DNA from: an uncultured Patescibacteria group bacterium
GTDB lineage: Bacteria; Patescibacteriota; Patescibacteriia; UBA2591; CALHIP01
Length of the DNA stretch: 32,210 bases
NCBI GenBank assembly: GCA_938030745.1
Contig: CALHIP010000002.1
Location: forward strand, 1 to 32,210
Direction of reading: 5' to 3'
Below, piece after piece: positions 13,142 to 19,765 of the stretch. The number at the start of each line of letters is the position of its first letter. Positions within the stretch are counted from its first letter, which is position 1. The notes under the pieces were generated by a model that was given only the letters and a program-made list of their open reading frames with translations, searched no databases and was not told the origin of the DNA. The translations under genes were made by a program, and so were the position numbers.

Positions 13142-13816
13142 ATGGCAATTATTATCAGTTTAGGAGGGTCTTTGGTTGTTCCAAAGAAAAATTTTTTAGC
13201 GACAAAATATTTATTACGATTCAAAAAATTAATTTTAAAATTTTCTAAAAAAGAAAAATTTTTTATTGTTGTTGGTGGAGGAAAATTGGCTCGCTTTTAT
13301 CAAGAAGAAGCTAAAAAGCAGAAAGTAGGAAAAGAAGATTTGGATTGGTTAGGAGTTTTTGCTACTTATCTTAATGCTCTTTTTGTTAAAAGTCTTTTTG
13401 GCAAACTGGCTTATTCCAAAATTTTTTTCACCCCTTTTAAAAAAAGAAAGATAAAAGAAAATATTATCTTTTTTGGTGGTTGGAAACCTGGTTGGAGTAC
13501 CGATTATGTTTCAGTTAAGTTAGCTCAAACTTATGGCGTTAAAGAGATAATTAATTTAACTAATGTTGATTATATTTATAATAAGGATCCGCAAAAATTT
13601 AAAGATGCAAAACCATTAAAAAAAATTTCTTGGTCAGAATATTTAAAAATCATTGGTAAAAAATGGGTGCCAGGAGCAAGCTATCCTTTTGATCCAATTG
13701 CAAGTTTATTAGCAAAAAAATTAAAAATTAGATTAATCAGTATCAATGGCAAAAATTTGAAGGCTGTGGATAACTATTTGACAGGAAAAAAATTTGATGG
13801 TACAATAATTGAATAA
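13142..13816 (+). CDS. pyrH: Amino acid kinase family, archaeal-type UMP kinase-like
   Basis: IIISLGGSLVVP, FIVVGGGKLARFYQEEA, NLTNVDYIYNKDPQKFKDAKPLKKISW. Confidence 0.75.
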   Translation: MAIIISLGGSLVVPKKNFLATKYLLRFKKLILKFSKKEKFFIVVGGGKLARFYQEEAKKQKVGKEDLDWLGVFATYLNALFVKSLFGKLAYSKIFFTPFKKRKIKENIIFFGGWKPGWSTDYVSVKLAQTYGVKEIINLTNVDYIYNKDPQKFKDAKPLKKISWSEYLKIIGKKWVPGASYPFDPIASLLAKKLKIRLISINGKNLKAVDNYLTGKKFDGTIIE

Positions 13817-13823
13817 AAATTTT

Positions 13824-13921
13824 ACCGTAGACAATAGGTCTTCGAGTTTACTCGAAGTTAAAATCCTATCGAGGTAAAAATCTTTATTTTTGTCTACGGT
13901 TTACGTAGACGTTTTAAATTT
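13824..13921 (+). ncRNA. Ribosomal protein L10-leader-like regulatory RNA upstream of rplJ
   Basis: 11-bp closing stem 13824-13834/13890-13900 around an inner hairpin (13840-13846/13851-13857); competing hairpin 13892-13898/13904-13910 uses the same strand. Confidence 0.75.
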
Positions 13922-14449
13922 ATGGCTAGGACAAGAAAAGAAAAACAAGAAATTTTAAAAAAGCTTTCTGAAAAAATTTCTCAAGCAAAATCTTTGGTTT
14001 TTATTGGTTATAAAGGGATAAAAATAAATGAGCAGGAAAAATTAAGAAAATTATTAAAGAAAGAAAAGAGTGAACTTTTTATTACTAAAAAAAGTTTATT
14101 AAATTTAGTTTTATCTAAATTCAATTTTGAAAGACTTAAAGATTTGAAATTAGAAGGAGAGGTAGGTTTGGTTTTAGGTTATGGCGATGAGATAACGCCC
14201 TTTAAGATTGCTTTTGATTTTTCAAAAGAAAATGAAAATTTAAAAATTAAAGGTGGAGTTTTTGAAAAGAAAATGATCAATCTTGAGACAATAAAATTTT
14301 TAGCTAGTTTGCCATCAAAAGCGATTCTCCAATCTCAACTTTTAATTAGTCTTCGCCAACCTTTGTTAGGATTAATTAATATTTTAGAAGCTAATTTAAG
14401 AAAATTAATTAATATTCTAAAAATTCTCTCAAAATCACCAACTATATAA
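13922..14449 (+). CDS. rplJ: 50S ribosomal protein L10
   Basis: L10 pattern with directly downstream L7/L12. Confidence 0.93.
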   Translation: MARTRKEKQEILKKLSEKISQAKSLVFIGYKGIKINEQEKLRKLLKKEKSELFITKKSLLNLVLSKFNFERLKDLKLEGEVGLVLGYGDEITPFKIAFDFSKENENLKIKGGVFEKKMINLETIKFLASLPSKAILQSQLLISLRQPLLGLINILEANLRKLINILKILSKSPTI

Positions 14450-18419: not shown

Positions 18420-18632
18420 ATGAATTTTTTAAATATATTTTTTCAAAGTCCATTATTCTATTTCTTTCTTGTTTGGTCTCTTGTTTGGAAGGGTCTTGCC
18501 CTTTGGCGAGCTGCCAAAAACAATCATCTAGTTTGGTTTATTGTTTTATTAGTTGTTAATACTTTAGGTATTTTAGAGATTGTCTATCTCTTAATTATTG
18601 GTAAAAAACAAAAAAAACCTCAGCCTTTATAA
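18420..18632 (+). CDS. Small membrane protein, DUF5652-like
   Basis: VWSLVWKGLALWRAAKNNHLVWFIVLLVVNTLGILEIVYLLII; ATG at 18420 preferred over GTG at 18405. Confidence 0.6.
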   Translation: MNFLNIFFQSPLFYFFLVWSLVWKGLALWRAAKNNHLVWFIVLLVVNTLGILEIVYLLIIGKKQKKPQPL

Positions 18633-18639
18633 CTTAATT

Positions 18640-18996
18640 ATGAGATTAAAACTTAAGCAAATCAGCCAGGCTGGGATATTTACTATTATCGGTTATCTTC
18701 TCTCACCGCTTTCTTGGTGGAATGATTTTTTTATTAATCTTCCAATTATTTTAGGCCTAGCTACTCTTATTAGTAAAATTCATTCCTCTCTTTTTACTAG
18801 TGCTTCAATTTTCTTTTATTGGCTTACTAATCTTACTGGTCTTATTTTGTTTCATAAAGGTATAGAAAAAATGATCACCCAAGAAAAGAAATTAGGTTTT
18901 CATTCTAGTAAAACTTTCAATATAATCATTTCCATTATTTATTCGATTTTTATTCTTATTCTGATTAAATTAAATATTTTAAAACCATTATTTTAA
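18640..18996 (+). CDS. Hypothetical membrane protein
   Basis: ORF with several TM segments; start at ATG 18640 (MRLKLKQISQAG) rather than 18598. Confidence 0.55.
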   Translation: MRLKLKQISQAGIFTIIGYLLSPLSWWNDFFINLPIILGLATLISKIHSSLFTSASIFFYWLTNLTGLILFHKGIEKMITQEKKLGFHSSKTFNIIISIIYSIFILILIKLNILKPLF

Positions 18997-19003
18997 AAAT
19001 TAC

Positions 19004-19031
19004 TTGACAAAAATTTTAATTGATTTATAAT
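19004..19031 (+). promoter_or_regulatory. Perfect consensus promoter TTGACA-N16-TATAAT
   Basis: TTGACA 19004-19009, TATAAT 19026-19031. Confidence 0.85.
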
Positions 19032-19037
19032 CTGATG

Positions 19038-19196
19038 AGATTTAAAATGGAGGATAATTTTAAACACACCGACCTTTGCTTCATTTTAATCCCTTCCACA
19101 AATATACTCCCTTCCACACGCGCGCCCAGTCCAAGACATCTAAAGCAAAGGTCGGTTTCTTAATCCGCTTTTATTTAGCGGATCCTTTCTTTTTTA
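19038..19196 (+). ncRNA. Candidate structured small RNA or attenuated leader, unknown family
   Basis: Consensus promoter; 14-bp perfect stem 19068-19081/19143-19156 closing a 61-nt C-rich, G-poor loop; terminator at 19163-19196. Confidence 0.65.
19163..19196 (+). terminator. Rho-independent terminator
   Basis: atccgct-tttattt-agcggat followed by cctttctttttt. Confidence 0.85.
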
Positions 19197-19219
19197 AAAA
19201 AATTTGTTAAAATAGATTT

Positions 19220-19765
19220 ATGTTTTGGCAAAAAATAATTGAGAAAGAAACAAAAAAATCAAAGATTACTTATTTTTATTTTAAAAAGAAAAAATATTCA
19301 TATTTGATTTTACCATTTGATTCAAGGATTTCTCCAAAATTCCAAAAAGCAGTTATTGATGGCTTCTCACAAATCTTTAAAAATGAATTAAAAAAAGCAA
19401 ATGCAATTTTGGCGATTGAAGCAAAAGGGTTTTTTCCTGCTTCTTGGTTAGCAGAAAAATATAAAAAAGATTTAATTGTTGTCAGAAAAAGAGATTATCA
19501 GATTAAAGGACAAATAAGGATCAAACAAAAAAAAGCTTATGGTAAAGGAGAACTTTTTTGTCTTGGTTTAAAAAAGAAAGATAAAGTTTTAATTATTGAA
19601 GATGTAATTTCTTCTGGCGGAACATTGATTAATTTAATTAAGGCAATTAAAAATAAATGTCGAATTGTTGGAATTGGATCAGTCTATGAAAGAGGCAAAG
19701 GAAAAGAGGAAATTGAAAAAGAAACTGGCTTTAAAGTCAAAACTTTGTTTAGAATCGAAATATGA
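19220..19765 (+). CDS. Phosphoribosyltransferase (APRT/PyrE-like)
   Basis: KVLIIEDVISSGGTLINLIKAI PRPP-binding motif; AILAIEAKGFFPASWLAEKY resembles APRT family. Confidence 0.8.
   Translation: MFWQKIIEKETKKSKITYFYFKKKKYSYLILPFDSRISPKFQKAVIDGFSQIFKNELKKANAILAIEAKGFFPASWLAEKYKKDLIVVRKRDYQIKGQIRIKQKKAYGKGELFCLGLKKKDKVLIIEDVISSGGTLINLIKAIKNKCRIVGIGSVYERGKGKEEIEKETGFKVKTLFRIEI

Follow-up and report, generated by a model that had tools for sequence, protein, structure and literature searches.

We found, in the genome of an uncultured Patescibacteria group bacterium, a locus that is probably an independent, strongly transcribed small RNA (sRNA) gene of about 155–160 nt, restricted to the species or a close group. 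The window, i.e. the whole stretch of 32,210 nucleotides that was analysed, is one entire contig of a 760-kb genome (35 contigs, about 30% G+C, rated 100% complete) whose size and gene content point to a Patescibacteria-like organism, and the candidate lies within a 223-bp gap (18997–19219) between two co-directional plus-strand genes, for a small membrane protein upstream and a phosphoribosyltransferase-domain protein downstream. Despite a contamination estimate of 0.3%, this assembly may hold foreign contigs, since several (C5, C9, C18, C22 and C32, among others) have no close matches in the genome of the sister species and some of these contain more Shine-Dalgarno-like starts. Elsewhere in the window, an L10_leader (RF00557; 56 bits, cut-off 44) was recognised at 13807–13926, ahead of an L10-like gene at 13922.

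An earlier, sequence-only reading of this DNA had pointed to a perfect promoter, and direct inspection bears this out: the −35 box TTGACA (19004–19009) and the −10 box TATAAT (19026–19031), separated by a 16-nt spacer, match the sigma-70 consensus at 12 of 12 positions (19004–19031, plus strand). Perfect promoters of this type occur 26 times genome-wide, as compared to 1.8 expected from Markov genomes, and because other copies precede the 16S rRNA, tmRNA, tRNAs, a def-like gene and rpsL- and rpsB-like genes, strong transcription can fairly be inferred. The predicted transcript would run from 19038 to 19196 on the plus strand, its ends being placed from the promoter and the terminator. The latter, likewise announced as ending near 19196, is an intrinsic-terminator-like element at 19163–19195 (plus strand), composed of a hairpin (19163–19183) and the T-rich tail CCTTTCTTTTTT; shuffles of the region contain 0.1 such elements on average. 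As the tail starts with CC, its strength is probably moderate, which counts against the sRNA reading. In a genome scan for a promoter, a noncoding stretch and a terminator in succession, the candidate was among very few non-tRNA units, and the discrete transcription unit that had been claimed is thus supported at the level of sequence.

Between promoter and terminator lies a 14-bp stem without mismatches, whose 5′ arm (19068–19081, plus strand) and 3′ arm (19143–19156, plus strand) enclose a 61-nt loop (19082–19142, plus strand). This loop is as C-rich and G-poor as described beforehand (24 C, 17 A, 15 T and 5 G), with three of the five G residues belonging to the palindrome GCGCGC, and it carries TCCCTTCCACA twice on the plus strand, 18 nt apart (19090–19100 and 19108–19118). 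The expectation that the loop is largely unpaired agrees with the prediction for the two copies (96% and 94% unpaired, respectively). When we counted mismatch-free 14-bp inverted repeats in which six or more pairs are GC and the loop measures 15–120 nt, nine were found genome-wide and none in each of six Markov genomes; the other matches that we inspected by eye include known RNAs, namely the 5S rRNA and an SRP-like RNA. An exact 11-nt duplication appeared in 0.09% of shuffled loops, and the fold energy is 4.7 standard deviations under that of shuffles (z = −4.7). Stem, duplication and fold energy hence all exceed chance, which, together with the open repeats and a promoter of the kind that precedes 16S rRNA, tmRNA and tRNAs, argues for the sRNA reading.

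The main rival reading holds that the element acts in cis as a leader (attenuator or riboswitch-like) of the phosphoribosyltransferase–NTPase genes beginning at 19220. We consider this reading, in which transcription would begin at 19038 and either end at the hairpin 19163–19183 or continue past it, unlikely, yet it deserves more weight than the remaining alternatives. The succession of a promoter, a structured leader, a terminator and, 24 nt further on, a gene start on one strand is what such a leader would look like, and part of the 5′ end is predicted to be able to pair with the 3′ side of the terminator. A weak 5′ hairpin (UUUAAAAU-GGAGGAUA-AUUUUAAA; 19041–19064, plus strand) emerged from fold prediction, part of which pairs with the 3′ tail instead in the predicted full-length fold. 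However, this fold retains the long stem and the terminator, a strong antiterminator is missing, and known riboswitches and leaders score below the Rfam cut-off. Besides, the downstream gene has an extended −10 element of its own, TGnTAAAAT, whose TAAAAT (19208–19213, plus strand) lies 6 nt before the ATG, the commonest such spacing in the genome, and is likely a separate leaderless promoter of the phosphoribosyltransferase gene. In the sister species (G001), the one orthologue comes immediately after a deoC-like gene, and no leader separates the two. It is mainly this leaderless-type promoter and the arrangement in the sister species that make the leader less likely than a free-standing sRNA.

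Judging by the genomes compared, the candidate, which the sequence-only reading had put forward as a possible new structured RNA, does not represent a new, conserved family of such RNAs. The Rfam scan that this reading called for returned nothing above cut-off for the region, the best match being Phe_leader (RF01859) with 26.9 bits against a gathering cut-off of 55, and the 6S RNA model (RF00013) matched neither the locus nor any other place in the genome, in agreement with the statement that the RNA was not recognisable as 6S. BLAST of the region against 59 near-relative genomes gave, outside the own genome, only promoter, AT-rich or short pieces. Of 27 genomes of the order, one contained the doubled motif in a pattern search; within the own genome its 10-mer is confined to this locus (all but about 9 kb of contig ends were covered in these searches), and viral contigs did not match the doubled motif. 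A covariance model yielded nothing convincing in the 59 genomes, in the own and sister stretches or across 384 phylum genomes; built on a single sequence, it rests mainly on sequence and could miss a diverged homologue. Two apparent homologues were discarded: the one at G002 C1:113245 falls between trxB-like and lspA-like genes that converge on it, and its stem looks like a terminator serving both directions; the one at G240 C1:318711 sits within an open reading frame, on the opposite strand, and has retained little of the stem. The lack of conservation in relatives that had been named as speaking against a new RNA thus holds among the genomes compared, where the family is represented by two genomes, the own and that of the one sister species. 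The absence of homologues and of covariation in the genomes searched also weighs against the sRNA reading itself.

The sister genome places the candidate at a synteny breakpoint: the genes upstream and downstream of the locus are on different contigs there, and a segment of about 18613–19224, lying between two conserved blocks, has no counterpart. The small membrane protein gene (18640–18996) is missing from the rest of the order, with relatives in scattered and few genomes of the class, and was possibly acquired horizontally at this same breakpoint; in the best six of its homologues, no RNA of this type was seen behind the gene. A MITE-like insertion was considered as origin and dropped, as no target-site duplication was visible by eye. 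Both the unmatched segment between blocks that are separated in the sister and the lack of conservation in the other genomes searched would suit a structure without function that arose by chance or is decaying where a rearrangement took place, and that may still be transcribed. We nevertheless find this explanation improbable, because an ordered set of a perfect promoter, a GC-containing 14-bp stem and a terminator is unlikely to persist without selection. The least credible alternative is that the locus yields a short mRNA whose 38-residue peptide is encoded by chance across the inverted repeat: an open 38-codon ATG frame (19047–19163, plus strand) does cover the whole hairpin, a qualification to the earlier description of a stretch with no long ORF, and the 18-nt repeat spacing is divisible by three, yet a frame of this length arises in 4.9% of shuffles, a search for protein-family matches of the product found none, and the codon score (−0.31, whereas real genes average +0.20) falls under that of 99.8% of equal-length real-gene pieces from the same genome. 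On these grounds the frame was treated as non-coding.

How a free-standing sRNA would act is suggested by its architecture. The 14-bp stem may serve as a clamp that holds the 61-nt C-rich loop single-stranded and might in addition shield the RNA from decay, while the terminator hairpin would close the 3′ end. The likeliest action would be base-pairing of the doubled UCCC/CUUCC motif in trans with G-rich segments in a small number of RNAs, rather than a general masking of Shine-Dalgarno sites. The latter, i.e. a C-rich seed binding G-rich translation start regions, had been the original suggestion and came out weakened, given few Shine-Dalgarno genes and start-region pairing worse than that of shuffles. 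Across 577 genes, GGAG, GAGG or AGGA occurs 83 times in the −12 to −7 bin and about 32 times per bin elsewhere, a Shine-Dalgarno-like excess over background of roughly 9% of genes, and TATAAT-like boxes are most frequent 6 nt ahead of the ATG, the position expected for leaderless mRNAs. The loop was predicted to pair with start regions (mean −7.86 kcal/mol) less strongly than shuffled loops do (−8.86 kcal/mol), and less strongly than with internal regions (−10.28); GTGGAAGGGA is absent from the genome, and the exact 10-mer of the loop has no complement there. Pairing with ribosome-binding sites is therefore not supported by these predictions. As the test used longest-frame starts and simple duplex energies and included some possibly foreign contigs, a few specific targets may still exist, and so the sRNA is kept as the best reading even though start-region energies no better than those of shuffles tell against it. 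A more specific version, which we regard as rather doubtful, is a recently arisen sRNA in a reduced genome that makes little use of Shine-Dalgarno sites, where a clamped C-rich loop with the doubled seed would regulate mRNAs by other routes, for example through coding-region pairing or as an RNA dimer via the GCGCGC palindrome. Self-pairing of the loop via this palindrome (−13.5 kcal/mol) was not significant, 11.6% of shuffles being as good.

Other hairpins of this genome were also surveyed. A promoter–hairpin–terminator unit outside the window, common to the genome and its sister (L136:16360–16525, minus strand; L054:1405–1580, plus strand), has 79% mean column identity over 176 columns and the hairpin GGUAAGGAWUUGAAGAWCCUUACU; it has no Rfam match at E ≤ 1, and its covariance model matches these two genomes only, out of 39. 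This unit is a better conserved-sRNA candidate than the RNA at 19038–19196. A perfect 16-bp stem whose 40-nt loop is C-rich (CCUCUC, CCCCCC, UUUCCC) lies directly after a gene's stop codon (L120:6664–6735, minus strand), and a 13-bp stem with a 60-nt C-rich loop containing GCCUCUC, GCCUCCUUUC and GCCCUCC is preceded by a promoter-like site (L114:7831–7916, minus strand), on a contig that has no close genes in common with the sister genome and is perhaps foreign to the bin. With the former belonging to a gene's 3′ end and the latter perhaps foreign, these are insufficient for a C-rich-loop RNA family within the genome.

A single unconserved candidate predicted from sequence is a modest finding. 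Still, an sRNA with a strong promoter in a genome with few Shine-Dalgarno genes could test how sRNAs act when their usual target is mostly missing, and the literature, as far as our partial coverage extends, yielded no work on small RNAs in genomes reduced to this extent. Among known systems, Phe_leader (RF01859) shares with the candidate a long stem followed by a terminator, but the 26.9-bit match rests on this layout, and the candidate has no phenylalanine-rich leader peptide (its peptide begins MEDNFKHTDLCFILIPS). RsaE/RoxS of Staphylococcus and Bacillus uses a seed that binds G-rich sites and for which Hfq is not known to be obligatory. The candidate resembles it in being short and intergenic, in having a promoter and a terminator of its own and in carrying a duplicated C-rich seed; it differs in showing no sequence match in Rfam scans, in presenting both copies together in a single large loop closed by a 14-bp stem, and in residing in a genome where Shine-Dalgarno sites are scarce and the target signal was not found. 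In RsaE, the duplicated seed is UCCCC (PMC9217828), and both RsaE and LhrC bind Shine-Dalgarno sites (PMC9217828; PMC4132741). In the G-poor LhrC of Listeria, several CU-rich UCCC sites, redundant with one another, are exposed both in loops and in a single-stranded stretch (PMC4132741), a likeness to the exposed, repeated UCCC-type sites seen here. LhrC, however, exists in multiple copies, distributes its sites over separate structures and has been proven to bind Shine-Dalgarno sites, and the candidate is single-copy. Of the traits that unite RsaE and LhrC, preferential Shine-Dalgarno pairing is thus not seen in our candidate (−7.86 versus −8.86), whereas the unpaired, repeated UCCC motif is (94–96% unpaired, by prediction). 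It also has, as far as sequence can tell, the promoter, the terminator and the non-coding character of a trans-acting sRNA. We regard the candidate as a plausible small RNA that belongs to a known kind and is restricted to its lineage.
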